Of a stretch of DNA of 64,000 bases, positions 30,466 through 58,000 are shown piece after piece. The notes below the pieces were generated by a model, which was not told where the DNA came from, ran no database searches, and worked only from the letters and a program-made list of their open reading frames with translations. This DNA is from an uncultured Bacteroidota bacterium (GTDB lineage Bacteria; Bacteroidota; Bacteroidia; Chitinophagales; Chitinophagaceae): assembly GCA_903905065.1 (NCBI GenBank), contig CAIVEW010000089.1, positions 62,001 to 126,000 of the forward strand, read 5' to 3'. Numbering within the stretch: position 1 is the stretch's first letter; every line of letters starts with the position of its first letter. A program made the translations under genes and the position numbers.

Positions 30466-30538
30466 GATTTCGTAGCTCAGTTGGTAGAGCAATACACTTT
30501 TAATGTATGGGTCTTGGGTTCGAGTCCCAACGGAATCA
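30466..30538 (+). tRNA. tRNA-Lys (anticodon TTT), probable attachment site
   Basis: Cloverleaf: GATTTCG/CGGAATC acceptor, ATACA-CTTTTAA-TGTAT anticodon arm, GGTTCGAGTCC T arm; integrase follows. Confidence 0.95.
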
Positions 30539-30697
30539 CTTGTAAGGGGTTACAGCAATGTAGCCCCTTACTCATTTTTACCTAGCGTTACTTGAAAGGG
30601 TTGATTTTAAAGCATTTATAACAAGGCCCTCTGTTCGAGAGTTTCTACCTTTAGACAGGTTTACACATTGTTAATCGACTAAAAAATCGACCAAATT

Positions 30698-32029
30698 ATG
30701 TGGATACCATTAAAAGCCATAATCGGCAAGAAACCCCGCAAAGACGGCAATTCCCCCATCTACTTCCAGTACTGCTACAGTTCAACAAACAGGACATTGT
30801 TGAATACAGAGATCGCAATACCTAAGCAATATTGGAACAGCAAACGGCAATGTATTTCAAAGCTGTTACCCGGCGAGATCGCGGATTTTGAAATACTGAA
30901 TAGTGAAGTTAGCCGCATCAAAAAAATCATTGAAAAGATCATTGAGTATGGAACGAGCATCAACACGCCCAATATTGGCGTATATGTGAAGAATACCTTC
31001 GATCCACACTTTGATGTAGATACTCTGAAAACTACCCAAGAACCAATTCAGATATACAAGAAAGAGCCAGACTTTTTTGCCGAGATAGATTCGTTTATGA
31101 ACGCCAAGAAAACCACCATCACGGAATATACTCTTGCGACGTTCAGAATAATGAAGCAGCGTTTAGTGGCCTTTGAAGCCTATCGAAATAAAAAAATCAC
31201 CTTTGGTTGTCTCGACTACAATTTCTATTCAGAGCTGATGGACTTTCTTACTTACTACTATGTACAGTCCCGTAAACGGGAGGTCATCTATGGACTAAAG
31301 GCCTCTACTATCGGGAGGACGGTCAAGCAACTTCGCATTTTCATAAGGGATAGAGTTAGACGAAAGGTAATATCTCCCATTGACATGGAAGATTTCAAGG
31401 TGATTGATGAGGAAGCAGACGCAATCTACCTGTCGTATGAAGAAATAGGGAAGATATATTCGCTGGACTTGGCTGACGACCAAACGTTAGAACTATACAG
31501 GGATATGTTTGTATTTGGGAGTCTTACCGGATTGCGTTTCTCCGATTATTCAAGCCTCCAATGGGAGGATTTGCGTAATGGGTTGCTCTATAAAAAAGCG
31601 AAAAAAGTGGACGCATGGGTCATCATTCCGCTGAGAAAGGAGGCAATTGAAATTTTCACTAAGCACTATTCAAAAGGTACACCCAAGATATCAAACCCAG
31701 TATTTAACAAGTACATTAAAGTGATCGCCGAAAAAGCAGGTATTACTAAACTCATTACATTCAGCTATAAGAAAGGAACCAAAAATATCATTGAAACTAA
31801 GCCGAAGTCGAAATGGGTTACCTCCCACACCTGCCGCCGATCTTTCTGCACAAACGAATACCTAGCAGGAACTGAGATCAGCTTGATAATGAAAATCTCC
31901 GGTCATAAAACCCACAAAGATTTTTTTAAGTATATCCGGGTTACTCAAGAAGAAGCCGCCCGTCAAATTCAAGAGATTTGGGTTGCGAGGAATAACATGA
32001 GCGCATTTTCCTTGACCAAAACCGGGTAG
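30698..32029 (+). CDS. Tyrosine-type site-specific integrase
   Basis: Arm-binding N-terminus, GSLTGLRFSDYSSLQWEDL, TSHTCRRSFCTNEYLAGTEISLIMKISGHKTHKDFFKYIR (HxxR...H...Y). Confidence 0.95.
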   Translation: MWIPLKAIIGKKPRKDGNSPIYFQYCYSSTNRTLLNTEIAIPKQYWNSKRQCISKLLPGEIADFEILNSEVSRIKKIIEKIIEYGTSINTPNIGVYVKNTFDPHFDVDTLKTTQEPIQIYKKEPDFFAEIDSFMNAKKTTITEYTLATFRIMKQRLVAFEAYRNKKITFGCLDYNFYSELMDFLTYYYVQSRKREVIYGLKASTIGRTVKQLRIFIRDRVRRKVISPIDMEDFKVIDEEADAIYLSYEEIGKIYSLDLADDQTLELYRDMFVFGSLTGLRFSDYSSLQWEDLRNGLLYKKAKKVDAWVIIPLRKEAIEIFTKHYSKGTPKISNPVFNKYIKVIAEKAGITKLITFSYKKGTKNIIETKPKSKWVTSHTCRRSFCTNEYLAGTEISLIMKISGHKTHKDFFKYIRVTQEEAARQIQEIWVARNNMSAFSLTKTG

Positions 32030-32031
32030 TC

Positions 32032-32340
32032 TTATTTATCTTTCTGGATCAGTTTTTCAATGTCATTCCACAGGAAGAATACCCTTGATTTGATCTTATA
32101 CTGCTTTAGTAAACCCTCCTTTACCCACACATGCAACGTCTGCCGGGAGATAGTGAGTATCTTGCAAACCTCGCTTGCTTTGTACAAGGGCTTTTGAGCA
32201 AGCCCTTGTACTTCATAGCTTACGGGCTGTTCCTTGCCTGTTTGGGCTTTTTGCAGTTCGCTTCTGAACAGTTCGCGTACCTTCTCCCAAAGTTCATCAG
32301 GGTCATACGGGAATAACATTGGTGCATACTGGTCTTTCAT
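32032..32340 (-). CDS. Helix-turn-helix (MerR/excisionase-like) protein
   Basis: KPLYKASEVCKILTISRQTLHVWVKEGLLKQYKIKSRVFFLWNDIEKLI. Confidence 0.85.
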   Translation of the reverse strand: MKDQYAPMLFPYDPDELWEKVRELFRSELQKAQTGKEQPVSYEVQGLAQKPLYKASEVCKILTISRQTLHVWVKEGLLKQYKIKSRVFFLWNDIEKLIQKDK

Positions 32341-32383
32341 ACTGACTATTTTAAAAGTTAAAACATTGCATTCTTATTCGCTT

Positions 32384-33781
32384 CTACCTATCTATTTCAT
32401 CATCGTCTCTGTCCAGGTCGATATCTGGCTTCGTGTCATTTTCATCGTCTAAATCATTCTCCCTGCCTTCCTCAATATCGCTATCTTCTTTAGTATCTCT
32501 GTTGTCATGTGCATCAAGATCCTTATCAGGTGATTGCGAAAGCCCGGTATCAGATTTAAAAGTGCTGCCGTTGCCTTTTGAGGAATCGTTCGCAAGAGAA
32601 GTAGAGAGGGTCGTATCTATGCCCTTTCCCTTTTCAAACTCACTGCTTCGGTTCAACATTTTTTGCTGATAATTCCTTTTCTCGTTGTCGTCCATCCCCT
32701 TTGTAACGTCCTCGTATGTACTCTGTTTTGACGCCTGTTCCTGTTTGTTCAGTTCTGCCAACCGGTTGCTCCGGCCACCGCGCAACTGCTGTATTTCCTT
32801 CAACTCCTTACCTTCCCTTTCTTTTAGCATTTCAAGATCATTTATCCTTTCTTTGAAACCTAAATTGCTAAATCTAAATTTGTGTTCCCCGTCAAACTTT
32901 ACACCCTGCAGTCTGCCATTTCTAAAATATGGCTCATGCCCATGAGTTTGCAACTGACTAAGAAAATGCTCTGTAGAGGTAGACTTTGAGTAAATCGTTT
33001 CGAGCAACCCAAGCAAAATATCCTTATCTACAGAGCGTTCGTGCGTTTTTATATTTTTTTCAACAGCCCTATTTATTTGCATATCCTTTGACCTACCATG
33101 TTCAGGTAAACTATGTACCAATTGGGGGTATTTTTCCTTCTGATACGCCTGCATGGCGAGTTTCTGTTCCTGAAATTGCTGCTTCGACACTCTATTTGCC
33201 AGACCGGTGCAGTATTGGGTGCCGCTTTGAACAAGATGGATATGAATATGCTCCTTATCCTGATGCACCGCCCCGAGGAACAGGCTGTTATCCCCTCTTA
33301 AGGACATATACTTCTGGGCAATGTCCTTTAGTATTCCTTCATTGATTTGCTTAGTATCAAGGTTGGAAAATGAGATAATGTGATGATAGGCTTTCACATT
33401 GTTGTTTCTGACATGCTGCCGCATCTTTTCATTTTCAGTAAATGCTTTTACATATCCCGCTATGCTCCGGGCTCGAATATTCTGCTTAATCAAAATCCCC
33501 GGTAATTTCTGTACAACCTCCTTTTTGTCTTGTTTTAAAATATGCTCTTGAATAAACTTAACCATGTTGCCATCTTTGGCGTGTTCCTTAAATTCTTTCA
33601 TCAGTGCGCTATCATTACGTTCAACCTCCAAATAGTACCGATCTTTTTCTGACAACTTAATCCCCGGAATATATGGTTGCTTATACGGCTTCTCCCTAAC
33701 CGGCTCTATCTTATGGTCGGCAAGCACATATTTTATAAGCTGGTCAACATTACCTTTCCGTGAGAGGCATTTAATTATCAC
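32384..33781 (-). CDS. Relaxase/mobilization nuclease
   Basis: MIIKCLSRKGNVDQLIKYVL..., YHHIISFSN, GAVHQDKEHIHIHLVQSG (HxH motif). Confidence 0.9.
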   Translation of the reverse strand: MIIKCLSRKGNVDQLIKYVLADHKIEPVREKPYKQPYIPGIKLSEKDRYYLEVERNDSALMKEFKEHAKDGNMVKFIQEHILKQDKKEVVQKLPGILIKQNIRARSIAGYVKAFTENEKMRQHVRNNNVKAYHHIISFSNLDTKQINEGILKDIAQKYMSLRGDNSLFLGAVHQDKEHIHIHLVQSGTQYCTGLANRVSKQQFQEQKLAMQAYQKEKYPQLVHSLPEHGRSKDMQINRAVEKNIKTHERSVDKDILLGLLETIYSKSTSTEHFLSQLQTHGHEPYFRNGRLQGVKFDGEHKFRFSNLGFKERINDLEMLKEREGKELKEIQQLRGGRSNRLAELNKQEQASKQSTYEDVTKGMDDNEKRNYQQKMLNRSSEFEKGKGIDTTLSTSLANDSSKGNGSTFKSDTGLSQSPDKDLDAHDNRDTKEDSDIEEGRENDLDDENDTKPDIDLDRDDDEIDR

Positions 33782-34260
33782 ACGACAGTTCCTTTAATTT
33801 CCTTCGGGTTGTACAGTTCTTCAATCACCTTCTGTTCCAATGCTGCCATCTGCGATAGTAGCGCCCGCCCTGCTTCAAAAGGCACTCTGTTTTCATCAAA
33901 CAACTTCTGAAGAGCGTTATAGTTCATCGCCAAAAGCTGCCGGATTGTTGCCAAAGCCAACGGATCGGGTGCGAGGTACTGCTTCCTGATATTGGCCAGG
34001 CAACTTTCCTTAATGAAGCGCGTCAGGCTGCGCTTATGCTTTTTTGTTGCTTGGGTCATCTCGGTAGCTTCTGATGCTGTAAGCGATATAGTTATCTGCT
34101 TTTGGGCTTTCCTGTGCCTTTGCCGCCATCTTGCCTTGTATTCGTTCCAATATGCTTTCCGGGCAACAGCAATATCCTGATCGCTCCCCGTTTCTAGCAC
34201 CTTTGTGCTGTGCAGGTAAGCGTAAACACCACTTTTCTTTTTGATAGCCCTTTGCGTCAT
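33778..34260 (-). CDS. MobC-like mobilization protein
   Basis: Ribbon-helix-helix-like ISLTASEATEMTQATKKHKRSLTRFIKESCLANI; ATGA overlaps with both neighbours. Confidence 0.75.
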   Translation of the reverse strand: MTQRAIKKKSGVYAYLHSTKVLETGSDQDIAVARKAYWNEYKARWRQRHRKAQKQITISLTASEATEMTQATKKHKRSLTRFIKESCLANIRKQYLAPDPLALATIRQLLAMNYNALQKLFDENRVPFEAGRALLSQMAALEQKVIEELYNPKEIKGTVV

Positions 34261-35660
34261 TTAAATGGAATTAAAGGCGGTTCAATTATGTTCTTTACTT
34301 GCAATGGATGCGGCGGCAATGAAGACAGCTTCCGTAGCCAAAAGTTTTTGTAATAAGGAAGGGTCTTGCTACGCAGTGGGGCTGAGTTATTTATCAGAAT
34401 AATCGCCTCATTTGCCATCCGCAGCTCATCCACTGACATCAACTCCCGCACTCCTTTTTCTTTACCAGTTTCCTCGTCAATTACTGTGTATTTCCCAAGG
34501 ATATGCGACAGTTCGCGACATGTATGCAACGGCTGTCCAGGCAAATAAATCTGACATCCACAGTTTGTTTTTATTTGGTGTGCCTCGCTTTGCCCATACT
34601 TTGAAATGAGGGCTATTTCGTCTTGCATACACAACGTTAAAGATGAATTAAATTTTCTTATATTTGATATTGTGGTAGACATCGCTGGAAACTTCATTGT
34701 AGCGAATTCGTCTAACAATATGAAAATGCTGCGCTCATCTTTATCAGGTATTCTAGAAAGAATGAAATTGAAAAGACTTTGAAAAAACAAAGCTGACAAA
34801 GGCCGGAAATAAATCAAGTGCTGCAAAGGATTGCAAACGAAAATAGCTACCGGAAAATCAGGATTACGGAGCATGCCGAAATCGATAGTATGAGTTGCCG
34901 TTGTTTTGCATACTTCTTTATCGTTCCACAAATTCAAAGCCACTCTGGTCGAAATTATTATTGACTGCAAAGTTTTGTCACCAACAACAAGCATTGCCTT
35001 ATATGAACTAATTAGCTCAGGGTCAGTTTTTATAAACATTTGGTCAATTTCATGCTCTGTATCGGTTGCGAATTTCTCCAACAGTCTGAGCACGTTCTGC
35101 AGCGTCCGGTATTGTACGTCTGCATAGAATACGAGATACCGTATGAACAATGACAGCAGCATGATGCTACTTTGTTCCCAAAATATTTCCGTTTTCGATT
35201 CACCCATTGCGTTATGAATGATAAGCAGGGCGACCTTTTGAATGTCAGATATAGTTTTGCATTCAAGCAGAGGATTGAACGACTCTGAATGAGTAGCATC
35301 GGAAAAATCAATTCGTAAAATCAAGTAACCTTTTTGGGCTAGATAGCCGCTGGTTCGCTGATAAATCTCTCCTGAAACATCGTTGAAAACAACAGATGAT
35401 TTTCCCCGGGCGATAGACACCGCCGATGAAATAATGACGGTGCTGGACTTACCGCTTCCGGTTGGTCCGAAAAGGGCAATATTGGTCATGGATTGGCTCC
35501 TTGTGATGGCTTTATGTCCCGTTACCGCCACTCCGAGGTTTAACCTGGACAGATGTTCATAATCACTCCCGAAATGCGCGTTGTAGGTATGTACCGACTT
35601 TTTCCGGCCTCCAAGTATAATGATAACCGCAAGGCCTATGCTAATGACACCGTAAATCAT
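34257..35660 (-). CDS. VirD4/TraG-type coupling ATPase
   Basis: ALFGPTGSGKSSTVIIS Walker A, FILLDEFATMKFP Walker B; start chosen at MIYGVISIGL (TM). Confidence 0.9.
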   Translation of the reverse strand: MIYGVISIGLAVIIILGGRKKSVHTYNAHFGSDYEHLSRLNLGVAVTGHKAITRSQSMTNIALFGPTGSGKSSTVIISSAVSIARGKSSVVFNDVSGEIYQRTSGYLAQKGYLILRIDFSDATHSESFNPLLECKTISDIQKVALLIIHNAMGESKTEIFWEQSSIMLLSLFIRYLVFYADVQYRTLQNVLRLLEKFATDTEHEIDQMFIKTDPELISSYKAMLVVGDKTLQSIIISTRVALNLWNDKEVCKTTATHTIDFGMLRNPDFPVAIFVCNPLQHLIYFRPLSALFFQSLFNFILSRIPDKDERSIFILLDEFATMKFPAMSTTISNIRKFNSSLTLCMQDEIALISKYGQSEAHQIKTNCGCQIYLPGQPLHTCRELSHILGKYTVIDEETGKEKGVRELMSVDELRMANEAIILINNSAPLRSKTLPYYKNFWLRKLSSLPPHPLQVKNIIEPPLIPFK

Positions 35661-35702
35661 TTTTTCACAAATTTTAAGATGAACTCGCTGAAGAAAACAC
35701 AT

Positions 35703-35735
35703 AGTTGACCAGTGCCTTTTAGGCACCAGCCAACT
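35703..35735. repeat. Nested hairpin upstream of the coupling-protein gene
   Basis: AGTTG-acca-GTGCCT-ttt-AGGCAC-cagc-CAACT. Confidence 0.7.
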
Positions 35736-39620: not shown

Positions 39621-39936
39621 AATAAAAAGTTTAGACCTAAAATTAGGTTTAAAATTCACTATGACAAAATATTATATATTTTGCGACAAGTATTGTTTTC
39701 TTTGCGACAAACTTTCTAAAACTTTTGATCTGATAAAGGGCTTTTGTTTCTTGTTCAACAACACCCATATAACCCCGCCTTGTATGCACTTCTTGTTCGT
39801 TGGCTCAAACGTTTGCCGCCATCTTCTTTCAGATTCCCCCTCATGAAGCCCCCCCTTGCTCTTGGCTAATACTCCCTACTGTAAAGCGTATTCAGAACTT
39901 TCACCCTATAGCTTATATCCATGCCGGACACACATA

Positions 39937-41341: not shown

Positions 41342-41383
41342 AAGATAGGAAAAAACAATTAGCCTGCTTCGCAGCAGGCTAAT
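41342..41383 (-). terminator. Intrinsic terminator for minus-strand transcript
   Basis: 11-bp stem ATTAGCCTGCT/AGCAGGCTAAT (41358-41383) followed on the minus strand by TGTTTTTTCC. Confidence 0.8.
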
Positions 41384-42050
41384 GACTGCAAACTCCGCTG
41401 CGCTCTACATGCAGCCCGCCCGCAGGGTAAATGGTATTCGGCATTCTTGCTCGGCAAACAGTGCGCCATGCCTACAACGGCCACATGCCCTGAATCGCTT
41501 TCCTTGAAAGGAAGCAGGGCAAGAGATCGTTGTTCCTGTACGGCCTCGATACCCGATTGCATCTGGGAATCGAGCCTGCAGGACCGGCAGGATCACACTC
41601 TTTGCGGCTCGCTGCGAAAACCTCATAGCGGCTCCCAGGTCTGTAGCTCATGCTCCTCGTTCATTTCAAGCACACCATCCGGCACGCTTTCATTCACTCG
41701 GGCTGGCTCCATCCCTTTCGCCGCTTTCGTATGTGCTCGCCATGCGAGCCACAGGCTCCGTTCCGATTTTCACTTCACAAACCTACGCGTATTTGCATGC
41801 CAACGCAAAAATCTGCACTGTGCGACCTGGCGCTGTCGCGCTTCTCAGGATCGCCCGAGCCTGTGGCACTCGCACACTCTATTCGCTGCGCTCATTCCGT
41901 TTACAGGCGAGCCGCTTCTTGATTGCCCGCAATGGAATATTGCATTCAATCGGGGCTGACGCACGGGCCGCAGGCGCTTTTACCATGCCTGACACACTCA
42001 AGCGCAATGGTATCCTCTCAAGGATATTTAAAGTATTTTCATTGCAATGA
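41345..42050 (-). ncRNA. Candidate large structured RNA (~700 nt)
   Basis: No consistent CDS (short ORFs in conflicting frames on both strands), many strong local hairpins, minus-strand 3' end ATTAGCCTGCTGCGAAGCAGGCTAATTGTTTTTTCC is a terminator. Confidence 0.55.
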
Positions 42051-42063
42051 CTAAATTTATAGC

Positions 42064-42393
42064 ATGGAAGCAACTGCGAAGAAAGCCCAAATGGATTATG
42101 TCACAATTAAGGATGCGGCTAAGATATTGAAAGTGGTTAACCACAAATTGCGGATAAAAATACTGGCGTTGCTTGATGAGGGAAAGCAGCTGATGGTTAC
42201 TGACATCCAAGTAAAGCTGCGCCTGACGCAGTCCGTTACTTCACTGCATCTTTCGATTCTGCGCGAAGCTAATATTGTTACCGCTGAACGGAAAAGCAAG
42301 GCGATGTACTACTCTCTGAACTATGGTCGCATTTCAGATATCCAAACGATTGTAGCCAAATTTGCTATAGTTATTCAACCATCAGCGAATTAG
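42064..42393 (+). CDS. ArsR-like winged-helix regulator
   Basis: AAKILKVVNHKLRIKILALLDEGKQLMVTDIQVKLRLTQSVTSLHLSILREANIVTAERKSKAMYYSLN. Confidence 0.88.
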   Translation: MEATAKKAQMDYVTIKDAAKILKVVNHKLRIKILALLDEGKQLMVTDIQVKLRLTQSVTSLHLSILREANIVTAERKSKAMYYSLNYGRISDIQTIVAKFAIVIQPSAN

Positions 42394-42419: not shown

Positions 42420-42692
42420 CTATAAAGGTTTGGCCGGCTGAAAATCCTTAGGGCTGCATTCCAGGATTTTTGCGATCTCGTTCAAATGCTGAACGTTATA
42501 TTTCTTATCGTATTTCCCACTTTCGATCATTGCAATAAAACTGGTAGCCATATCAAGCTCAAAGGCAAGCTGTGACTGCGACAAGCCCTTCTGATGGCGT
42601 TTCTCGCGTACTTTCTCTATGACATACTTATCAACTTTGGAAATCATTTCCTGTTCAAAGTATGGCGAGAACAAAAAATAAACAGTCACCAA
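42420..42692 (-). CDS. XRE-family HTH regulator
   Basis: VREKRHQKGLSQSQLAFELDMATSFIAMIESGKYDKKYNVQHLNEIAKIL. Confidence 0.9.
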   Translation of the reverse strand: MVTVYFLFSPYFEQEMISKVDKYVIEKVREKRHQKGLSQSQLAFELDMATSFIAMIESGKYDKKYNVQHLNEIAKILECSPKDFQPAKPL

Positions 42693-42774: not shown

Positions 42775-43149
42775 ATGAAGAAAGCAACATTGTTTAGTCT
42801 CGCCATTCTCCTGTTCCTCTCAGTTCCCTCGTATGCAGGATTCGTTACGCACCCTCCGGCCCGCCATGTCTCATTCGCGACACTTACGGGCAACGACAAG
42901 CCTGACAACAAAGATGCCGCGCATACAAAGAAAACAGGCCTATATGGAATATTGTCGCTATCCATGGCAGTTATCGGATGCATATGCCCGGTCTCATTGG
43001 CGTTCTTGGCACTCTGCCTGGGCGCTGGAGCAATTGTCCTTGGTTGTATGGGCTTGAACAAAAAGAAGCGTAAGTTGAGAGGTCTCGCTATTGTGGGAAT
43101 CATACTCGGAGCGATTGCCATAATTGGTGGGATAATACTCCTTGCATAA
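42775..43149 (+). CDS. DUF4190-like small membrane protein with signal peptide
   Basis: Signal peptide plus two Gly/Ala/Ile-rich TM helices around KKKRKLRG. Confidence 0.7.
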   Translation: MKKATLFSLAILLFLSVPSYAGFVTHPPARHVSFATLTGNDKPDNKDAAHTKKTGLYGILSLSMAVIGCICPVSLAFLALCLGAGAIVLGCMGLNKKKRKLRGLAIVGIILGAIAIIGGIILLA

Positions 43150-43476: not shown

Positions 43477-43625
43477 ACCCGATACAAAATAAATGGAAAG
43501 GCACAAATAATTCAAATCTGCTCCCCGATAGCAAAGGTATAGGCCTGCTCCACAAAGGACAAGGTCGGCACTTCGCTTTGCTGCGTTTGTGAATTTGCAC
43601 AACAAAATTTCCAGACTACAACGAC

Positions 43626-43695
43626 TATGGACTGCGGTATCTCATAGCTCGAATTTTCTTGTGTAAAACCTTGCTCCTTTCCTCCGCAGTCCATA
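43626..43695. repeat. 12-bp perfect inverted repeat with 46-nt loop
   Basis: TATGGACTGCGG (43626-43637) / CCGCAGTCCATA (43684-43695). Confidence 0.7.
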
Positions 43696-43766
43696 TGGCT
43701 TGTCGCTATTGGTAGCATCATTGAGGCGCAGCCGATATGATTTTCACCCTTAAAAGCAAGAACCAT

Positions 43767-43994
43767 ATGGCACAGAACACACTTCATTTATCCCGCCTGA
43801 TGACCATCTCATGGCAAATCCAGAAGGCGAAAGACAAAACCCGCTCAAAGGCGCTCACGGCTGCATGGGCCATATTCTCAAACGAGGATATTACCGTGCA
43901 GTACCTGACCCGCAAGCTGAACCACCACAAGCCGGTCCCGCAGAAAGCAGCCGGGCAGTTCGGCTTATTCACCAACCCGGAACCAATTGCTTAA
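43767..43994 (+). CDS. Small hypothetical protein
   Basis: MAQNTLHLSRLMTISWQIQKAKDKTRSKALTAAWAIFSNEDITVQYL; basic helical. Confidence 0.6.
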   Translation: MAQNTLHLSRLMTISWQIQKAKDKTRSKALTAAWAIFSNEDITVQYLTRKLNHHKPVPQKAAGQFGLFTNPEPIA

Positions 43995-44213: not shown

Positions 44214-44612
44214 TTAAAATGATTGTATCATGAACAAACACACCAAGAATATTGATGAATTAGTATCTACATATGATATACAGTCTCCCCCTGATGAGCC
44301 GATCAGTTTTGCCCACCGCATTTGCCCCAAACAGTTATAGCTCGTCATCAAAATATTATTAACCGCTCCATAAGGTGTGGCATGAAATGTGTCCGCAGTT
44401 ACAGGATCATCGCCCAGCTGGCTTAACGCATACACATTGCTGTTTGGATCTGTGCACATTCGCTTCACCTGCTCGTTTTGAGCGGACGGCAGAGAACTAA
44501 AATCATAAATCGTGCCGCCGCCACTAGCCCACTTAAATTGTTGCGCATGAGATGGCAACACCAGAGAAAATGTGATAAGGCATATTAAAAAAGTTGTCAA
44601 AATTCCTTTCAT
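44214..44612 (-). pseudogene. Truncated copy of the tandem secreted propeller/PKD family
   Basis: N-terminal ~110 aa parallel the two downstream full-length paralogs, then diverges after GGDC and stops. Confidence 0.75.
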
Positions 44613-44631
44613 AGAAATTAGACTGGCAATT

Positions 44632-46803
44632 TTATCCTTTCACTACTTTTACGATATTCCGCGATCCGTCTGTGCCGGTTAATTCAAGTATATACACCCC
44701 TTTCGAACACACCGTTGTTGAGATCGAGCTGCTACCAGCGTTCAAGTTGCCTCGCATCACGCATTCGCCGGTGACGTTAAGCAGACGATAAGTAGTGTTT
44801 TGAGGGATACCCGCAATGTGGAGTTCATTCGTTACCGGGTTGGGGTACACTTCGATGGTGGCGAGAGAAAAACCAGCAACACCCGTTGTACTCACGACAA
44901 CAGTATGGCAAGCCGAATCATTGCCACAGCTAGTATAGGCAGTGACGCACACTGTATAGGTACCGGTAGCCGTATAAGTATGTAAAGCCGTAGAACCGCT
45001 GCCGCTTGTTCCATCTCCATAATTCCACAACACGCTATCCAACCCCAATGTAGTGCCAGTGTACGTAAATCCTATCGTGTGAGTGCCAGTGTCACTAAAA
45101 GATGCAATAGGAGTTGTGCAGATCACGACAACCACATCGCTGCAATGTATATCACTGCCGCAATCTGTATAGACTGTGGCGCAGGCATTGTAGGTGCCAG
45201 AGGAGGCATAGGTGTGCAACGGCGTTGTGCCAGTGGTAGTAGCAGAGCCATCCCCGAAATTCCACACAACGCTGTCTATGCCGGATGTAGTGCCGGTGTA
45301 CGTAAAACCTATAGTATGGGTACCTGTATCCGTATATGCTGCCTCAGGTGAAGATGTGCAACTGCAATCAACGCCGTATTTCATCACAAAGAAATCAGTA
45401 TTGCCGCCGACCGATATATAAGGAGCGGTTATTAGCGGCCCGGCCCAAATACTGTCGGTTACATAACCTCCTATATATATGTTTCCGACCTTATCAGACG
45501 CTGTAGCTGTACCTTGATTATAAAAACCGTCACCATATAAGGATTGTATTGTTTGCAGATCACCTGCGGAATCGACGATAACAAAATATGGAAGCCAATC
45601 CATACCCGGAGGGGTAACGATATTAGCACCACTTTCATCAAGTACCTCTCCTACATAAGTACCAATTGCAGCTACTTTATTATTTGGCAACAGGGTTATG
45701 GAACTGAAAAGGTTTACAGACAGAGTGCCTTCAAAATTTCTAAACCATTCCACATGTCCGTTCGTATCAGCAGTCATAACGACAGACATATCTCCGCCCA
45801 AATGGCTCCTCGAAACGGAATCTCCGTTAAAAGAAAATGTAGCCGATTGTGTACTTCCGCTAAAATGCAAGTGCTTAGCATTATCTAACACTATCCCCGA
45901 AAAAGCGTTATCATCACCGTGCCCGCAAAAATATTGCCAGAGCTTATTTCTGCTTATGTCGAATGCCGCCGCAAAAAATGTATCAACCCCGGCTCCGAAA
46001 GATTGGTTTACTTCGCCATATACATACATTTTGTTGGTGGCGGGATCAATGACCGCACCTCGCACATACCATTCCGAATCTAAATCTAACCTCGTTGCGC
46101 TCAATAACGTTCCCGACGGGGCGTAGGCCATATCATATACACCATAAACGCTGGTAACAGTTGGCGTAAGAGGAGTTCCCGTCGCCTGAACATAGCACAA
46201 ATAATGCATGTTATTAGCACCATCTATTGCAATCGCGTCCGCAAGGCTAGCAACAGCGGTTTCACCGGCAAAGCTATTAGGCCCTACATACCGTATCCAT
46301 TTAAAATGTCCGCTTGTGTCAAACTTTATAAGACCCACTGATAAATAATTAGAAGCAGGAGGCCCAATAGTAGTGTCATTTCCGATATACATTATAGTTC
46401 CTCCTGCACTAAACGAACCCGCCACATAAATATTACCTAGACTGTCTGCCTGCAAACCAAATGGAGTTACGCCGTACCCTGTGTTCTGTAGCAGTTTAGC
46501 CCACCGCATTTGCCCGTTGCAGTTATAGCTTGTTAGCACAACGTTGGGATTCACGCCTATGCTGGTTTCGTTGAATGTATCGGCGAAAACCGGATCATTA
46601 CCGACCTGGCTTAATACATAGATATTCCCATTGGGGTCTGTGCACATGTACTTTACTTGTTCATAATGACCGCTTCCTGATGAAGTTAAATCATAAGCCG
46701 TCCCACCCCCATGCACCCATTGAAATTGCTGCGCATTTAAACTGATAAGAGTTGAAAGACAAGCGATAAGGCACAGTAAAAAAGCTCTCAAAAATTCTTT
46801 CAT
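44632..46803 (-). CDS. Secreted PKD-domain protein with T9SS type A sorting domain
   Basis: Signal peptide, two PKD repeats (YTGTTSGIDSVVWNFGDGSATTTGTTPLHTY...), C-terminal VYPNPVTNELHIAGIPQNTTYRLLNVTGECVMRG. Confidence 0.9.
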   Translation of the reverse strand: MKEFLRAFLLCLIACLSTLISLNAQQFQWVHGGGTAYDLTSSGSGHYEQVKYMCTDPNGNIYVLSQVGNDPVFADTFNETSIGVNPNVVLTSYNCNGQMRWAKLLQNTGYGVTPFGLQADSLGNIYVAGSFSAGGTIMYIGNDTTIGPPASNYLSVGLIKFDTSGHFKWIRYVGPNSFAGETAVASLADAIAIDGANNMHYLCYVQATGTPLTPTVTSVYGVYDMAYAPSGTLLSATRLDLDSEWYVRGAVIDPATNKMYVYGEVNQSFGAGVDTFFAAAFDISRNKLWQYFCGHGDDNAFSGIVLDNAKHLHFSGSTQSATFSFNGDSVSRSHLGGDMSVVMTADTNGHVEWFRNFEGTLSVNLFSSITLLPNNKVAAIGTYVGEVLDESGANIVTPPGMDWLPYFVIVDSAGDLQTIQSLYGDGFYNQGTATASDKVGNIYIGGYVTDSIWAGPLITAPYISVGGNTDFFVMKYGVDCSCTSSPEAAYTDTGTHTIGFTYTGTTSGIDSVVWNFGDGSATTTGTTPLHTYASSGTYNACATVYTDCGSDIHCSDVVVVICTTPIASFSDTGTHTIGFTYTGTTLGLDSVLWNYGDGTSGSGSTALHTYTATGTYTVCVTAYTSCGNDSACHTVVVSTTGVAGFSLATIEVYPNPVTNELHIAGIPQNTTYRLLNVTGECVMRGNLNAGSSSISTTVCSKGVYILELTGTDGSRNIVKVVKG

Positions 46804-46821
46804 AGAAATAAGATTGGTAAT

Positions 46822-48987
46822 TTATCCCTTCACTACCCGTACTATATTCCGCAATCCATCTGCGCCGGTCATTTCAAGAATATACACACCTGCCGAAAGC
46901 GAATTGGTTGAGATAGTGTTCATGCCGACTTTCAGATCGCCCATCATCACACATTCGCCCGTGACGTTCAGCAAGCGGTAACTGGTGTTTTGTGGCACGC
47001 CGGTTACGTATAGTTCATCCTTTGCCGGATTGGGGTATACCTGGACACCACCGAGACAAAGACCGGTCACACCCGTTGTGCTCACGACAACAGTATGGCA
47101 AGCCGAATCGCTCCGACAATTCGTGTATGCAGTCACGCAGACCGTATAAGTGCCTGTAGCGGTGTAAGTATGCAACGGCCCAGTACCAGTGCCGGTTATG
47201 CCGTCCCCGAAATTCCAAACTACGCTGTCTATGCCTGTGGTAGTACCGGTATAGGTGAATCCGATGGTATGAGTGCCGGTATCAGAAAAAGATGCCGTGG
47301 GAGTTACCGTGCAGATCGAAACGGTGACATCTGTGCAGTGCATGTCATTGCCGCAACTTGAATAGACCGTGACGCAAGCGGTATAGTTCCCTGATGCCGT
47401 GTAGGTATGGATCGGGTTTGTGGTGGCTGCGGTCGCAGAGCCATCCCCGAAATTCCAAACCGTGCTATCTATGCCCGAGGTTGTGCCGGTATAGGTGAAG
47501 CCAATTGTTGCCGAGCCGGTGTCTGAATACGCCGCAGTGGGCATGCTCGCACAACTGCAATCCACGCCGTACTTCATTACGAAGAAATCCGTATTGCCGC
47601 CAACGGTGTGATAGGCTGGAATCGTACCGCCCCATGCACTATCGCCCATCTCACCACCGAAATAGATGTTGCCTATGCGATCCGCCGTAACTGCTGTAGC
47701 TACGCCACCGCCATCGGCATACACCTGCTGCATTGTTTCTAAATAGCCCGCCGAATCAAGAACGACAAAATACGGATTATCTGCTGCTGTCGGGGAAGTG
47801 GAAAATGATAATGAAGTTGTTGGATCGAGTACCGTACCAATGAAACCTCCTACAGCCGCTACCTTATTATTCGGCAGTAAGGTTATTGAAGTAAAAGAAT
47901 TCTCAGAAGATGTACTTTCAAATTTTCTAAACCATTCTACATGTCCATTTGTATCAGTAGTCATAACGACGGCCATATTTCCTGCAAAATGGCTTGCGGA
48001 AACTGAATCACCATTAAAGGAGAATGTGGAAGATTGTGTGCCCCCACTAAGATGCAAACGTTTTGCATTATCTAATACTATACCAGAAAATCCATCGTCA
48101 TCGCCATGCCCACATACGTATTGCCAAAGTTTATTCCGGCTCACGTCAAATGCGGCAGCATAAAAAGTATCAACTCCTGCTCCGAAAGACTGGTTTACTT
48201 CGCCATATACATACAGTTTGTTGGTAGCAGGGTCTATGACAGCACCATGCAAATACCATTCCGAATCTAAATCCAACCGCACTGCACTTAACAATGCCCC
48301 GATTGCATTGTAGGTCATATCATAGACGCCGTAAGTGCTGGTAACACCCGGCATAAGTAAAGTACCGGATGTAATGTAACAGAAATAATGCGCATTGTTT
48401 GAGCCATCAAGAGTAATAGGCCCACCATAGACCGAAGTTGCAGCAGCAAATGTGCTTGGGCCAACATAGCGTATCCAGTCAAAGTGGCCGGTTGTATCCA
48501 GTTGAATTAAACCTATTGCTAAAAATTCAGACCCTGTTGCTGCGATTGCAGTATCATATCCGATATGCAATATGCCCCCGCTTGAAACGCCGAGGAAATC
48601 TCCCGCTACATAAATATGCCCAAGACTATCAGCCATAATGCCAAAAGCAGTACAATCGCCAGCAGTCGTGGAGATCAGCTTTGACCATCTCATTTGTCCG
48701 TTGCAGTTATAGCTTGTGATAAGCAGATTTACATCTGCACCATGCGCAAGCCCGTGAAAGGTATCTGCAACAATAGGATCGTTACCGACCTGGCTTAACG
48801 CATAGACATTGCCATTGGGGTCGGTACACATATATTCTGTTTGCTCAGATTCATGTGATGGTAGCGAACTAAAATCCTCAATAGTTCCCCCGCCATGCAC
48901 CCATTTAAATTGCTGCGCCTGTGAAAATGTTATATTCAACAAGAATAAGAAATTGCAAAGCACTATTCTCATTATCCTCTTTTTCAT
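46822..48987 (-). CDS. Secreted PKD-domain protein with T9SS type A sorting domain, tandem paralog
   Basis: Closely similar to 44632-46803 along its whole length; start chosen at MKKRIMRIVLCNFL. Confidence 0.9.
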   Translation of the reverse strand: MKKRIMRIVLCNFLFLLNITFSQAQQFKWVHGGGTIEDFSSLPSHESEQTEYMCTDPNGNVYALSQVGNDPIVADTFHGLAHGADVNLLITSYNCNGQMRWSKLISTTAGDCTAFGIMADSLGHIYVAGDFLGVSSGGILHIGYDTAIAATGSEFLAIGLIQLDTTGHFDWIRYVGPSTFAAATSVYGGPITLDGSNNAHYFCYITSGTLLMPGVTSTYGVYDMTYNAIGALLSAVRLDLDSEWYLHGAVIDPATNKLYVYGEVNQSFGAGVDTFYAAAFDVSRNKLWQYVCGHGDDDGFSGIVLDNAKRLHLSGGTQSSTFSFNGDSVSASHFAGNMAVVMTTDTNGHVEWFRKFESTSSENSFTSITLLPNNKVAAVGGFIGTVLDPTTSLSFSTSPTAADNPYFVVLDSAGYLETMQQVYADGGGVATAVTADRIGNIYFGGEMGDSAWGGTIPAYHTVGGNTDFFVMKYGVDCSCASMPTAAYSDTGSATIGFTYTGTTSGIDSTVWNFGDGSATAATTNPIHTYTASGNYTACVTVYSSCGNDMHCTDVTVSICTVTPTASFSDTGTHTIGFTYTGTTTGIDSVVWNFGDGITGTGTGPLHTYTATGTYTVCVTAYTNCRSDSACHTVVVSTTGVTGLCLGGVQVYPNPAKDELYVTGVPQNTSYRLLNVTGECVMMGDLKVGMNTISTNSLSAGVYILEMTGADGLRNIVRVVKG

Positions 48988-49064
48988 AGTTGTGTTTTTG
49001 TATAAAGTTAATACTCTAACGTTAAAACCCCCATCCCTATTGCAGGAATGGAGGGTAATCATGG

Positions 49065-52000
49065 TTAATGTGCCACTACCAACCTTTGTACTTGTAGCGC
49101 CTTGCCGTCTCCCTCCATGCGGATGATGTAAACTCCAGGCATCCAGTTCGCCGTATTTACCATCCAGCTTCCGCTCACTGTATTTGGCATGGTATAGTCT
49201 ATCTTCCTGCCCATAGCATCATAAATAGAGATGCTCTGGTCACTGTTTCCATCAGCGCCATAGTTATAAGAGATCGTCACCATGCTTGACGTTGGATTCG
49301 GGAAGACAAGCATCGCCGTGCTGACGTTTGCTTGCATGCCTGTGCTATTATTCGTCTTCCCTGTATCAGCGGGTGAATGTCCATTCCGTTCTGATACCGA
49401 CCATGGGCAGTTCGGTAAAGGTACCCTCCGTTTGTAGTAACATCTTCTGCCATTGCTGGTGTCGGTAAATATTACCTGTATAGTAACACTGTCCGGCGGC
49501 GGCACTGCAAGTGTTGTAAAAGTCAGCGTCATGGGCGGCTGGACTCCATATGAAGCAAGAATACCAGAGAACGGATCAATAGGACCAATGTCAGTACCTA
49601 GCGTATATATATATCCTCCGCCTGGGCTATACATTGTAATCGTCATGCTGTAGGTTGCAGGGTTAGTTGTGTCGCAGACAATCGCCACATGGAGCGAATC
49701 GCCCTGACACGTATCGCAATGCGCAACCGTAACGTCCATAGTATCGGATATTTTCGCGCACAATCCGTTGTTTAAATTCCACTGATATTCACCACCGCTA
49801 TCTACTACATACGACCCCATGAGACTTGATGTGCCGGACTCCGCTACTATATCATTGCGCAGCCAGGCCCAATAGCTAAACGTAACATCCGGCGGGCCAT
49901 ATAAGGTGATCGGCAACTGTTCCTCACAAAGCGAATAGCAGCCAGTTGGCAGATATGGAAAATACGTATCCGGTGCAAGCGGCACATAAGTATCCGAGGA
50001 ACTAATACAGCCGTACAGATCGGTAAACCATACACGATATGGCCCGCCAGAATAGATATCATCCACAGAATCGGTTGCACCATTGCTCCAATTGTAAAGA
50101 CCGACCCAGGGCGCTATTTCGGATGCCTTCAGTTCCAAATGGTAGGTGTTGCAATCTACCACGGTAACTGGCGATGCTATTACTGGGTTCGGCGGTAGCG
50201 GGTAAATGTTTATGCTGTCTATAGCTGATGTGTCATAGCAGGAAGTGCCTGAAGGTGTATCTGTGATTCCCAAAACCAGCATATACTGGTAGATCGAATC
50301 CGCAGAAAGGCCTGCGTCCACAATGTAGGGCAAAGAGCTTTCAGAATCGATACCACGCCACCATGCATAGGAAACGCCAGCACCTGCATAGCCAGACAGG
50401 TTCACTGTTTGTCCGTAGCAATAGTTTTGCAGGCCATAGATTTGTGCGTTCGGCGGTTGAATGATTTTTACGTATTGTGTGGGATAGAACGTTTGCTGAC
50501 ATTTATAAGAATCAATTACAGTCACCCAATACGAGCCTGACTGATAAACACTGTCAGCGCTCCCAACGGTTCCATTGCTCCATAGATAGATAAATGGCGC
50601 TGTTCCACTTGTTGTTGGAAATATAGCAAAATTTGTGACAAACGGCGCTGCATTAGAACAAACTACACCCCCTCCACCGTAAACACCCGTTAAAGTATTG
50701 TGATAAATTTGTACTGCTTCCGTTGTATCTGCCGTGCAGCCTATGGTATCAGTAACGGTTAGCAACACTGAAAAAGTATGCGGGTTGGTAGTGAATGTTG
50801 GCGACCAACTATATGTTCGCTGGGGATCCTGCAATAGATTAGAAGAGCTATCACCAAAGCTCCAATCGTAAGCAACAATGCCCGCTGTACTAGTGGCAGT
50901 GAATCTTATCGGCACATCCTCGCAGATCGGAGAAAGCGTATCAACAAACGCAGCATGAGGTCTGGCCGGTACAACAATGGGCAATGTAAACGTGCAACTG
51001 AATGTGCCGCCCGGCCGTGTGCCGGAGACTGTTTCGGTAATGTTGTAAGAGCCAATCGGTAGAGCTACGGTGAGGTTTGTCCCGCCGCCTAGTATTGTTC
51101 CGCTGTTATCCCAAACTATGGTGTCTATATGCCACCACGGCACATAGGCAGAATAATCAGTGAGCAGCAGGCTGTCATCTACACCTCCGGCGCATTTCAG
51201 CCGGTATCTGAAATTGGCAATAATACCTACCGTGTCCTGCTTGGTCGTATCTGCAATGCAGACACCGAAAGTCTTGGTAAATTCAAATGTATAAATGCCT
51301 GGTAAACCATAGGTGACTACGGCTATTGCACCGCCACCGGAAGTAGTAAAGCTCGTCGGAACTGTCGCCGGTCCCCATTCGGGACCGGTACCGCCTGTTG
51401 TGCCAGAACCATCCAGAGTTATTGAGTTGCAAATATCCGATGAAGTAACGATGAACGGAGTATCGCAATGAGGGTGAATGTGGAAGCCTCCCGTGTCGCA
51501 CATGGCATGGTTGATATTTACCACCTCGGAAACCCCCGAACAGCCATTGCTTGCGGTGACGGTAAAATAATAATTCTGAGGGCCGCCGGATGCAACATAT
51601 GTGGTATCCGTGGCGCCTGATATCGCCCCCGAACCGTTGTACCATTGGTAATCCAACCCAGTTACGTTATTCGTCACCGTGCCCACTAAGAGTGTGGTCA
51701 AACTGTCGCAACCCAGTATCTCGCCAGAAACACTGGTGTATGCTACCGGTCCTGGCAGAATTGGAATAGCTACCGAGCCACTGCCCGAGAGTGGGCAAGG
51801 CGCAGAGGAATCAGGTATTACTGTTACCCTAACGGTATAGATAATATTGCCGGTTGTCGTATTTAGCGGATACCTGTGCCCTGGCGATACGTTTGTAGTG
51901 GTCGTAGTTGTTGGTGTGCCGTCTCCAAAATCCCAAGTATAACTAATGCCTCCCGTATTCGAGGTAAACACCACCGGAGAATCAGGACATGCTGGCGATG

Positions 52001-55000
52001 GAACGGCAACAATGGTAACTCCCGGCGACGGCTGAACTACCACCGTGAGCGTATCCGATTTTACACTGTCGCATTTATGCACGGTCACGATGATCTTTGC
52101 AGTTGTGGCTGCTGTGACATTGTTCCACAAGATGGTATCAGCGGGCGCATGAGCACCGCGCACCACACTGCCTAAGGTATTCGGAGAGATAATCCAGTCA
52201 TATACTTCGCCGCGAGTGTAGTTGCAAGTATATCCTCTTTTTGAGTTGGCGCACGGCGTCGTATCTCCGGTGATATTTAGCTTGATGCTGTCAGTAGTAA
52301 TATTCACAGTATAGGCAGCGCCCAAACAATATGGCGGGAAAGTGTTCACATGGCTCACCAGCAGCTTCTTTGTGCCGGTGCTCGTCCACGTCACCGTCAC
52401 CGTATTGCCGACCGTTGTTGGGGAGATAATTCCACCAATGGCCTGCCAGGAATATACTGTGCCCGGTATATCGTTCCATGCCTTATAGTTATACAAACGC
52501 CCGAGGCATACGGTGTCAGGGCCGATAACGCTGTCAATCGCGCCCGGTGAACCGAGCACGTCAATGGTCAGTGGATTGGCGCAGAAGCCGCCAGTGGCCG
52601 AAAGCAGGTACGCACCCGGTGTTCCGAAAGTATGGGTGAATGAGCCAGAGCTGCTACCTGTCCCAATAACGCTGCCGGTAAGCACGCTTGATAAAACCCA
52701 GTTGCCGGATGCCCCGCCTGTGAGGTTGTATGTTTCGGTATAACCCTGGCATACCGTGGTTTGCCCGGTTATGGTATCTGGCGGAACTACAGACACTTTG
52801 AACAGCGCATTTCCGCCACACAGTTTTATCCTGTTTTGATACCATCCGTGTATCTCGTATGTGCCGAGGGAATCAAATTGCAGTATAACGGTATGGTCAT
52901 CACGGTAGCCAACGACTGCGCCGGGGTATCCGATGACTCCCCACATATATTGCGTTGCCGCCCAAAGCGGCAGGCTGTATTCATACTGTTCGCCTGCACA
53001 GACCACCGCAGGACCGGTAATGACGGGACTTTGCAATATCACGGGTATCTTTATTGTCGTGGTGTCGGAGCATACGCCGCTGCATCCGGGAGTGGCAAGG
53101 CTCACATAGCCAAAACCATCGGAACCGACATCGTTCCACTTCACAGTGATAGACGCAGTGCCTGAACCGGTTACGATAGTTCCGCCGATCACCGACCAGT
53201 TGTACGTTCCACAAGTAGCTGCCGTACTGTAAGTAGCGGTTTCGCTATCGCACACAATAGCTGCACATTGTATTTTCGGGGCCGGGTCGCTTGATACATT
53301 CAACACTTCGCGCATAGTGTCCGAACAGTTGCAGGCGTTCTTTACGACAAGTGTTACCGTATACGTGCCCGCTGCTGTATACGTATGCGATGGATCAGTT
53401 ATGGCTGTTCCTGTGCCGTCGCCGAAGTTCCATATCCATGACACTATTGGGGATGAAGAATCTGCCGTAGAAAAATCAGTAAATAAAATGTTGTCCGCAA
53501 GGCAATAGCTGGTACTGCCTGTGAAGAAATGCGCATGAGGCTTAGCTATTACTTTTATGCAAGCGATTGTTTCGGCAATGCAATGACTGGCAGTATCATA
53601 GAGTGTGATGGAGGCCGTAGTTCCAAGTGTGGGCCACATCACATCTATACTGTCGCCATAATTTGCGACGATGATACCCCCAACAACGCTCCATGTGAAC
53701 ATGCTGCCGCCGACGCCATTGCCATAATAACGCACAATGGAGCTGTCACATACAAGGATGCATCCCGTATCGGGTAGGATAGTTCCCGGTCCCACAAGAT
53801 CCCCGCCTGTTGCCAGTGTCTGGCAGGCGACGATAAAGTTGGTGGTGATGTACGGGATTTCATTAACGACGATAGCTGTGGTCGCAGTGCCTGTACCACA
53901 TAACGTAGTAGCGGTGTATGTAATCGTTACCGAGCCGGAGGCGATGCCCGTAACTATACCCGTCAAAAAACCTACCGTTGCAATGGCCGCATCACTACTG
54001 GTCCATGTGCCGCCGGTCATTCCATCGCTGAGTGTTATTGTGGAACCGGAGCATACGCCCAATGGGCCGGTAATAGGAAGCAGCGTATTATCATACACTT
54101 TCACTACTCTCGTTACGACTGATGTACCGCAACTATTGACTACGGAATAACTCAAAGTTGCGGTGCCCACAGCAACTCCTGTGGCTACTCCAGATGCAGA
54201 ACCAATGGTAACAATGCCGGTATTCCCGCTACTCCATACCCCACCACTAACAGAATCACTGAATGGAGCGGTAGACCCGACACATAGGGTATCAGTTCCT
54301 GAGATCGGTGGGACAACCGGCAAAGAATCAACAGAAATCGTGTAGGTGACAAAACAGCCTGTGCCTATCGTATAGGTGACTATGGCCGTACCTGTATGCA
54401 GCCCGGTGATCGTGCCGCTGGAACCGTCCACATTAATGGTGGTGCTACCGCTACTCCATGTGCCGCCAGCCGTAGAATCGCTGAGGATTATTCTTGCCAG
54501 CATGCAGACTGAATCTATGCCGTGTATAGGCAATGGCAACGGATTGACAGTAATTACTGCGCCTATATAACAACCCGTCGGAAGTATATATACGATGGTG
54601 TCACCGCCAGGGCTTACTCCCGTTACTGTACCCGAAACGGAGTCTATGGTCGCAATACCTGTGTTGAGGCTTATCCATGTACCGCCCGGGGAGTCATCCG
54701 ATAGCGCTGTTGTGTAGCTAACACAAACGGACAGCGCTCCGGAAATCGCAGATGGTAACGGGTTTACCGTAACAACAGTGGCAACACCGCATCCTGTCGG
54801 AAGTGTGTAACTAATAGTTGTGGTGCCGGAGGTTATACTTGTTACATGCCCCGTAGAGGAGCCGATCGTGGCAACCGAAATGTTATGGCTAGACCACGTA
54901 CCACCAGAGGTGGCATCAGTCAAATTTATCGTGTCGCCAGCGCACAACGGTGCATTTCCCGTAATTATTGCGGGGACGGGGTTTACGGTAACAGGGATCG

Positions 55001-58000
55001 GCAGCATATCAATGCATCCCGGTCCAACTGAAACGGTATAAACCAACGTGGCAGTACCGGCTCCAACGAAAACGATGTCGCCATCAGTAAGTCCGATTGT
55101 TACCACGCTCGTATCGGTACTGGAAAAGCCGCCTCCAGTCGGCGTAACCGTAACTACCACGGTCCCACCCACACAAATATCGAAAGGATAAGGCGGGTCG
55201 GTGGTAATAAAGAACGATGGCATCGGTATAACAGTTACTATCATCGATGCAGTCGCTGATCCGCAAGCATTGAAAGCCGTGTAAGTTACAGTAAGCGTAC
55301 CTGTTGTTACGCTCGTTAGCGTTGTTGCAGAAGTTGTATCCGATGACAGCGTACCGCTTCCCGTACCGGAGACGTCTGTCCATAAAACGGATGTCACGCC
55401 ACCCGGGCCGCTACTAAGACCTGGAGACCCGGTCAAGTTAATGCTGCATCCCAGATGTACAGAATCTAGCCCCAGTATTGTTGCCACCGAGGGTGTTGTT
55501 ATGACGGTAACAACCGTAGTCGTAACACTTGTACAAAAGGTCGGAGCAATACCTGTTGTTGTATAGCTAATAACAGACGTGCCAGCGTGCATTCCGGTTA
55601 CAAGGCCGGTAGATAGTCCAACGGATGCATTTGTGTCACTGCTTGTCCAGGTACCCCCTGATACGGTTTCAGTCAAAGTGGTAGTAGCACCAACGCATAA
55701 AATTGTCGTTCCCGCAATAACACCTGCATTCGGGTGTGGATTTACGGTCACAACATACGTTCTGTCACAGTCAGAGGGAGCAGCCGCAACGTAATGTATA
55801 GTTGCAGTTCCCGCGACAACTCCAGCTACTACGCCGGTCGTGAGTCCAACACTTGCTGTCCCAGGAGAACCGCTGTACCAAGTGCCACCAGTGATGGCAT
55901 CGGCTAGAGTAGTGGTTGATCCAACGCAAACAGCGGATGTACCTGTAATAGCCGCAGACGGATATACGGTAACCGTTGTCGTGATTGAGCAGGCACCTGG
56001 CGAAGTAATATAGCTGATGACTGCGGTTCCTGCACTTATCCCAGTCACAACCCCAGATGTCGAAATAGTTGCAACGCCTGGAAGGGCAGTACTCCATGTG
56101 CCTCCCGTTACATCATCAGTTAATGTAGTTGTTGACCCCTGACATACTGTTTTTGTCCCGTTAATTTCCCCGGGAGATCGAGTGACTGATACGGTATCTG
56201 TCGTTGTCGACGATCCACAAGAGTTTGTAGCGACGCATGAAAATATTTCTATTCCCGAACTAAAACCATAAGTGGCTGCAACAGCAGTACTGCCTGAGTC
56301 AGACAATATAAAACCTACAATACCGGAAGAGAACCAACCAAATGACGTGGCCCCAGTGCCGGTAATTCCTAAATCAAATCCAACACCCGAACAAACCACG
56401 GAGGGGCCTGAAATCAAGCCGACTGTTGGTGTTGAGTTAACAGTTACACATTTCGATGTTGTTACCGGATAGTAGCAAGGGCCATCTAAAGTGGGCGTAG
56501 TTATGCTGGTAATATTAAGACACAGCGTGCCTACTGTAGTTATCAAGCTCCCAGACACCGTAACTCCTATATGTCCTGACGAAGGTATGGTATCCGATCC
56601 TGTTGTCGGCGATCCGGATGGATAGGTTATGGTATAATGGACCACATCTAAATATGTACCGTTTACGACAAAGGTAAAATCAGCGCCTACGCAAGGGTTC
56701 GCGGTAGTCGTAGTAAGGGCTGCCGGCGTAGGTTTAGGGCATACGGCTACGTCTCCGGTGGCTGTTGTGCCACTAGTGCGATATAGTGTAATATTATCAA
56801 TGGAAATACTCTTGTCCATCACAAGTTCTGCATCCTCTATACATATAAAGGTTGTGCCAGAGTATCCGCTTGTAAAATCGAATGCTACTTGATACCAATT
56901 AGGATCACATCCGGGATAAATTCCCGCTCCATAGGTTACATTGATTGTGGTACCGCCACCAAGGCCATTCTCCAATGTTGATCCGCTATGCCCGGCAGCG
57001 CCAATTAATGTGGCAAATTCCGGATATCCAATATGACCAAGAACATCTGCGTCCAAAGGTCGCCAGTATCGATACCAAAAAGAAAAATGGTAGGTTGCTC
57101 CGGGACATAAATCAACAGTCTGACCCCAAAAATAATGCGCATAGTCTCCGGCGGTCCCATGAGCCGACCAAAAATTAAGGCACACATCCCCCGGAGGACT
57201 GCCATCTTCAGATATATATAATGGACATTCCCTACCCGGGTCCATTCCATACGAATTGTTCATGACAATATGGTCAGGACCTTCATCCCCCGCCGAGTGC
57301 GTCGAGCTACAAATGTTTCCATATAGAGTTTCCATACACGGAAATCTATTGCAGATGTCACCTGGCGAGAAGTCCTGATAAAATTCACCGTTGTTTATAA
57401 GATTAGGCCCTTGACAAGTTGCAGTAAGGGTATATGTCTCGCAAATGGAAGCGACCCCAACAGAAAACATAACTCCCGTAGGGTCACCAGTCCCGCTGGA
57501 CGGTGTTGGAAGTGGCAAGCCGGTTGGCGCGGCCCAGCTATATGCGATAGGTACAAACCCGGCAGGATAGGTAACGTGTACTGTGTATGTGTAGGTACTA
57601 CCTGGGCACAGGTTGTCGCCGGAGGGAACTGTAAAGGTCGTATTCGTGCACGGATCATAAATTGGTGGGCACAGAGTTCCAGTAATTGTAGAGGAAGTTG
57701 TTCGTTCACTGCTGTGTGTTCCAAATGTTGCAAAGCAACCGTCAGACAATGTATAGGTGATTGTTACCGCGCCATCGCTAACACCTGTTACATTTCCTGC
57801 CAGGCTAGGCGTAGATGTGTCTGCCGTTGCAGTGGCAACGGTTGTATCGCTACTACTCCAAATGCCTCCGCCAATTAAATTGATGAAGTAATACGGAATG
57901 CCTATAAAAACCGGATCGCCTCCTTCAATTGGATTTGGGGACAAGTTAACTGTTACAGTCGCTGTGGCCGGTGAGCAACCTCCTTCGAGTACATAAGTTA

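Follow-up and report, generated by a model that had tools for sequence, protein, structure and literature searches.

The locus studied here raises the question of whether a GC-rich stretch of bacterial DNA with no protein-like gene encodes a large structured RNA and, if so, to what kind it belongs and what it may do. The stretch lies in a 64,000-nucleotide segment of a contig from an uncultured Bacteroidota bacterium; this whole segment is called the window. The original prediction, made from the sequence alone, placed at positions 41345-42050 a noncoding RNA of ~700 nt, read from the minus strand, located inside a mobile element and divergent from an ArsR-type gene. Our analysis makes it probable that a large structured noncoding RNA of a new class is carried here by Chitinophagaceae-like integrative mobilizable/conjugative islands, its transcription and function being inferred.

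The interval is GC-richer than its surroundings, as had been noticed: the GC content rises from ~34% outside to 53-57% inside. It holds short conflicting ORFs only, none of them conserved between homologs. Comparison with homologs confirmed most of the interval as a conserved body but not positions 41985-42050, so that the RNA is large, as predicted, with a size of about 600 nt in the window rather than ~700 nt (584-705 nt among relatives). On the minus strand the conserved ends defined by the homolog alignment are GGTAAAAGCGCC at the 5' side (~41984) and GGAGTTTGCAGTCAT at the 3' side (~41382); in the alignment the 3' border of the body lies near GCAGTCAT, and the flanks vary between homologs. 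The features of the locus and of the surrounding element are listed in Table 1.

Table 1. Features of the window, with positions counted from its first nucleotide.
Feature	Position	Strand	Remarks
Tyrosine integrase	30698..32029	+	beside tRNA-Lys (30466-30539)
MobA/VirD2-type relaxase	32384..33781	-	
VirD4/TraG-type coupling protein	34257..35726	-	same mobile element
Terminator-like stem-loop followed by T-run	41358..41383	-	just past the RNA; window copy
Large structured RNA, conserved body	41382..41984	-	from homologs and alignment A2; 154-pair consensus
3' domain (model R2)	41382..41542	-	long covarying hairpin, TTTGCCGA..CGAATACC motif, terminal hairpin
Long-range closing stem	5' arm 41968..41976; 3' arm about 41415-41428	-	consensus columns 9-23 x 726-737
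5' domain (model R1)	41727..41951	-	hairpin and branched domain closed by GCTCGCC/GGCGAGC
ArsR-type HTH protein (PF01022)	42064..42393	+	cargo; association not conserved
XRE-type HTH protein (PF01381)	42420..42692	-	cargo
DUF4190-like membrane protein	42775..43149	+	cargo; below Pfam cut-off
Small protein, 88 aa	43210..43476	-	between e2 and the RNA; likewise in L023 and L024
e2, second structured repeated element (~200 nt)	about 43500-43730	-	upstream of the RNA, same strand
75-aa 'LSRLM' protein	43767..43994	+	elsewhere beside SSB, same strand

The 11-bp stem plus T-run said to end the RNA was found at the expected place. When homologs were compared, this terminator-like stem was seen in the window copy only and was not kept in all of them, and no consistent Bacteroidota-type promoter motif conserved among homologs was found upstream of the RNA.

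The minus strand folded with -290.4 kcal/mol (z = -6.25 against shuffled sequences; z = -2.7 for the plus strand). RNAalifold, applied to nine full-length copies, gave -259 kcal/mol, compared with -100 to -122 kcal/mol for column-shuffled alignments. The consensus obtained from alignment A2 (nine homologs) contains 154 pairs, with 89.7% standard cells. Changes on both sides were found in 70 of the 154 pairs, versus 32 ± 4 in shuffled alignments, none of 500 shuffles reaching 70, and the covariation signal collapsed once the pairing partners were slid by 1-3 columns. For the closing stem, 76-88% of the cells were paired and the changes were mostly one-sided.

The hairpins singled out in the original prediction fared differently in the consensus. 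The GCCCTGAATC...AGGGC hairpin proved to be part of the strongly covarying helix 22, and ATTG-cggg-CAAT does mark a hairpin, better read as the longer covarying structure GATTGAATGCAA...TTGCGGGCAATC (helix 4). CTCGAT...ATCGAG forms a peripheral hairpin present in some members only. The GTGGCTCGC-atg-GCGAGCAC hairpin is a coincidence of the window sequence, its arms being paired elsewhere in the consensus (helices 5 and 9).

The shuffling and sliding controls leave relatedness in, and the consensus structure came from the same alignment. For these reasons two independent checks were performed, one on 12 new sequences and one with a model of the 3' domain, R2. The 12 previously unused sequences (11 from other genera), aligned and folded alone, yielded the same 5' helices, with double changes in 23 of the 41 pairs of this independent 5' fold. 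R2, built from close relatives only, gave 15 matches in 292 kb of distant loci: 14 were located just 3' of a 5'-domain match on the same strand, so that 14 of the 18 distant 5' domains were accompanied by a recovered 3' domain, and there was one other match. No R2 match was found in L085, L086, L094 and L096.

The proposed structured RNA is thereby borne out by covariation, with compensatory pairs above every shuffle and both domains independently recovered. In its length of several hundred nucleotides and its complex, covariation-supported fold, it conforms to the general kind of large structured bacterial noncoding RNA. As far as sequence comparison can establish, this RNA is strongly conserved, has two domains and a long-range closing stem, measures ~600-700 nt and is folded on the minus strand.

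The choice of strand was supported by the non-Watson-Crick cells of the consensus: 111 G-U versus 21 A-C for the minus strand, and 39 G-U versus 45 A-C for the opposite strand in its own best fold. RNase P of the same genus, used as comparison, gave 156 G-U versus 12 A-C (G-U share 12.4%, and 9.1% for the large RNA). Since G-U exceeds A-C on it (111:21), the minus strand was identified as the strand selected to fold; this strand-specific excess and the difference in folding z-scores agree with the orientation originally proposed.

Long stop-free runs occur on the antisense strand, above the 95% shuffle level in six of nine homologs. However, these frames are out of phase between homologs, with a same-phase fraction of 0.27-0.30 (33% expected by chance), and no reading frame, of those compared across homologs, showed amino-acid-like substitution scores. 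Protein coding on either strand was rejected on this evidence. No sequence-level condition that would have refuted the predicted structured noncoding RNA was fulfilled; codon-level conservation was not found in any frame among the homologs, and the large RNA is noncoding, judged by the absence of a conserved frame.

Over the RNA, neither the window nor eight homologous loci yielded a match to Rfam 15 at the gathering cut-off, in agreement with the earlier statement that it does not belong to a named class. At E values up to 5 there was only noise over the RNA, with no intron or ribozyme families. A known Rfam class, intron or ribozyme, including ROOL, GOLLD, OLE and HEARO, was rejected for lack of a match. 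No description of the RNA was found in the open-access literature, most subscription papers being outside the coverage.

The closest known RNAs in general appearance are ROOL and GOLLD, which form RNA-only cages of unknown function; ROOL was not essential for the host in one strain tested (PMC12286853). The new RNA is similar to ROOL in length (659 nt for one ROOL example), elaborate fold, carriage by mobile elements and patchy occurrence (PMC12286853), but ROOL is found on phages and prophages near tRNA islands, whereas the new RNA is located on conjugation-type islands beside SSB and ArdC, and no sequence or covariance match links the two. GOLLD is also large, ornate and borne by mobile genetic elements, with a conserved 3' region and a more variable 5' or middle part (PMC12286853). 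It is often >800 nt long and resides in phage tRNA arrays, whereas the new RNA has no tRNA array and no Rfam match: a single tRNA lies in the window, ~11 kb away, and none was found in the five 40-kb regions scanned. OLE and HEARO are likewise large bacterial structured RNAs, and HEARO moves with its element; they differ from the new RNA in that no Rfam match was found and neither an OLE-associated nor an HNH/IscB-type gene consistently accompanies it. Because it lacks the ROOL and GOLLD features that were tested (Rfam match, phage or tRNA-array setting), the RNA was assigned to a class of its own within the same general kind, the best reading being that it resembles both in size and style but is unrelated to them.

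BLASTN against 200 related genomes detected the RNA in eight further genomes of the genus and in one genus besides, a genome often having two or more copies. For the distribution counts we used R1, a covariance model of the 5' domain, which matched 8 of the 35 genomes surveyed in the genus and 24 of the 299 surveyed in the family (18 of 104 genera), including Taibaiella and Flavipsychrobacter MAGs. The family-level counts take a single genome for each species, and many of these genomes are MAGs. Beyond the family, matches were limited to trace level in one further family, and no other genome matched among 399 from the phylum. In the good genomes of the genus, the RNA was present in 5 of 25 and RNase P in 25 of 25. 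These genome surveys show the RNA to be accessory, with a patchy distribution within one Bacteroidota family.

No match was obtained in viral contigs with a conserved pattern of the RNA, in PLSDB plasmids with the window copy, or in phage records with one homolog. A phage origin was rejected from the results with viral contigs (conserved pattern) and phage records (one homolog).

The location inside a mobile element was supported by the integrase, relaxase and coupling protein genes of the window and by conjugation or recombinase genes on the other islands. Region 30466-35726 of the window, which includes also an HTH/MerR-type small protein, is the left part of an integrative mobilizable element; the integrase, relaxase and coupling protein are in the same order in G335 (by eye). 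Other islands contain serine recombinases, identified by Pfam in L088 and L091 and by eye in G285 and G335. No repeat of the tRNA-Lys 3' end, indicative of an att site, was found within the window, which leaves the right end of its island unplaced.

A separate observation in the window was an Rfam match to group-II-D1D4-3 (57.5 bits) at 39692-39850 on the minus strand. Neither a reverse transcriptase ORF nor a domain V match was found near it, and it is probably a degenerate group II intron fragment.

The islands share a recurring series of elements: SSB and a 75-aa protein on the strand opposite to the RNA, e2 on the same strand, often ArdC on the same strand, variable cargo and the RNA. In 16 of 16 loci with SSB, the 75-aa protein or e2, these elements lay 5' of the RNA in fixed orientation and never 3'; DUF932 likewise lay 5' of it in three loci, and L084 is among the loci with a different gene order. 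Nothing is constant 3' of the large RNA, and SSB is kilobases off in many loci. The 75-aa protein, which had no Pfam or NCBIfam match and marks these islands, occurred in 8 of 8 RNA-positive genomes of the genus versus 1 of 27 others (Fisher 4e-7 for co-occurrence, relatedness not corrected). In the window no SSB lies beside the 75-aa protein, for which reason this copy may be partly eroded.

The ArsR-type gene is positioned as originally described, but its adjacency to the RNA is not conserved: among about 30 loci, only 2 have a homolog near the RNA, in opposite orientations, and the hypothesis of an ArsR-controlled locus was rejected. Other cargo near the RNA, of a defence-like kind, includes an Mrr nuclease, an N6-methylase, DUF4365 proteins, a PDC-M30A (three-Cys-motif; TcmP-like) pair and a PDC-S60-like metallophosphoesterase. 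Since the neighbours vary between loci, no defence system could be assigned as the partner of the RNA, and a single dedicated one was discarded.

A conserved three-gene set, a candidate defence system, was observed 3' of the RNA in L027 (5765-11199) and L093 (2166-7464). It is composed of a PDC-S60-related metallophosphoesterase, a ~180-aa protein and a ~930-aa protein without Pfam match.

The element e2 was found in 12 copies in 12 loci, always upstream of the RNA and on the same strand. Double changes occurred in 24 of its 51 consensus pairs, and the G-U:A-C ratio was 59:11 on the strand of the RNA. It lies directly upstream of the unit formed by the 75-aa protein and SSB and is folded on the template strand of that unit. 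Frpo single-strand promoters are located upstream of SSB on conjugative plasmids; the search that described them covered 50-350 bp regulatory regions, and in that paper they were described outside the Bacteroidota only (PMC11541004). Element e2 is similar to Frpo/ssi in being structured, a few hundred nucleotides long or less, directly upstream of SSB and on the template strand. It differs in that the -35/-10 logic has not been shown for it, and no similarity comparison stands behind the likeness. Because of this match in position (PMC11541004), e2 may be a single-strand promoter; by inference from the analogy, it may work on incoming single-stranded DNA or, alternatively, be a second RNA.

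In our preferred reading, the large structure would be a stand-alone RNA transcribed from the minus strand, an inference made without RNA data; in the window, the transcript would probably end at the stem-loop plus T-run. It would act as RNA, as an oligomer alone or as an RNP, for the island and not for the host. The most likely role, also inferred, would be to help establish, maintain or transfer the island, since the only partners that stay constant have functions in single-stranded DNA and anti-restriction, whereas the cargo differs between loci. For the molecular act, the closest precedent would be an ornate scaffold or cage made of RNA, as in ROOL and GOLLD.

The main rival, which cannot be excluded without expression data, is a folded transferred DNA strand: the structure would then work as single-stranded DNA and not as an RNA, serving as a single-strand promoter, an initiation site or an origin site like Frpo, ssi or sso. 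This would account for the constant orientation relative to SSB and the mobility genes. Transferred leading regions typically carry SSB, ArdC and DUF932, and e2 is placed and folded like the Frpo promoters upstream of SSB (PMC11541004). Folded DNA could also yield covariation and, less so, a G-T preference. We nevertheless consider it unlikely for the large RNA, which with its ~600-700 nt and 154 pairs greatly exceeds the 50-350 bp Frpo regions searched and is too long for the class, has an RNA-like G-U share (9.1%, G-U:A-C 5:1) and is not directly upstream of SSB, from which it is separated by kilobases in many loci, with nothing constant on its 3' side. In addition, no oriT was located, hence the transferred strand is unidentified. 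For e2, a function as transferred single-stranded DNA is a more appealing reading than it is for the large RNA.

Many copies, a patchy distribution, the position of some copies at contig ends and a 5' cargo that varies while the RNA stays could suggest a mobile DNA unit or recombination site, such as an RNA-bearing transposon end, a degenerate intron or a cargo-exchange boundary. Little room is left for it: even at E = 5 no intron or ribozyme family matched, the copies lie within larger islands, in the company of constant neighbours, and are not random insertions, no transposase is regularly present (the RNA is followed by an IS110 gene in one locus only), and selection acts on the whole internal fold, not on the ends alone. 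An untranslated region, a coding sequence in decay or hairpins formed by chance, a view that could draw only on the long antisense stop-free runs, is hardly credible, being refuted by compensatory pairs that exceed every shuffle and by the frame tests.

A new class of noncoding RNA, the preferred reading, would be an unrelated addition, with clear covariation, to the large ornate bacterial RNAs, which are few and whose functions are open. Its setting is also new: integrative mobilizable/conjugative islands of Bacteroidota, not phages. The constant neighbours suggest a process, single-stranded DNA entry and anti-restriction, and e2 is a second, so far unnamed, structured element accompanying the RNA.

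A two-part system in the transferred strand can be proposed only tentatively and with low confidence: e2 would be a promoter specific for single strands, serving the SSB/75-aa unit, and the giant noncoding RNA would have a dedicated part in establishing the island on its entry, for instance as a shield against host defence or a decoy for it. If this were true, e2 would be, as far as we could find, the first single-strand promoter described for Bacteroidota, and the RNA a novel, RNA-based type of establishment factor in conjugation.

Very long repetitive proteins of secreted type were also observed adjoining the islands, at 5008-11259 of L029 and at 44214-60278 of the window (minus strand, 3737 aa).
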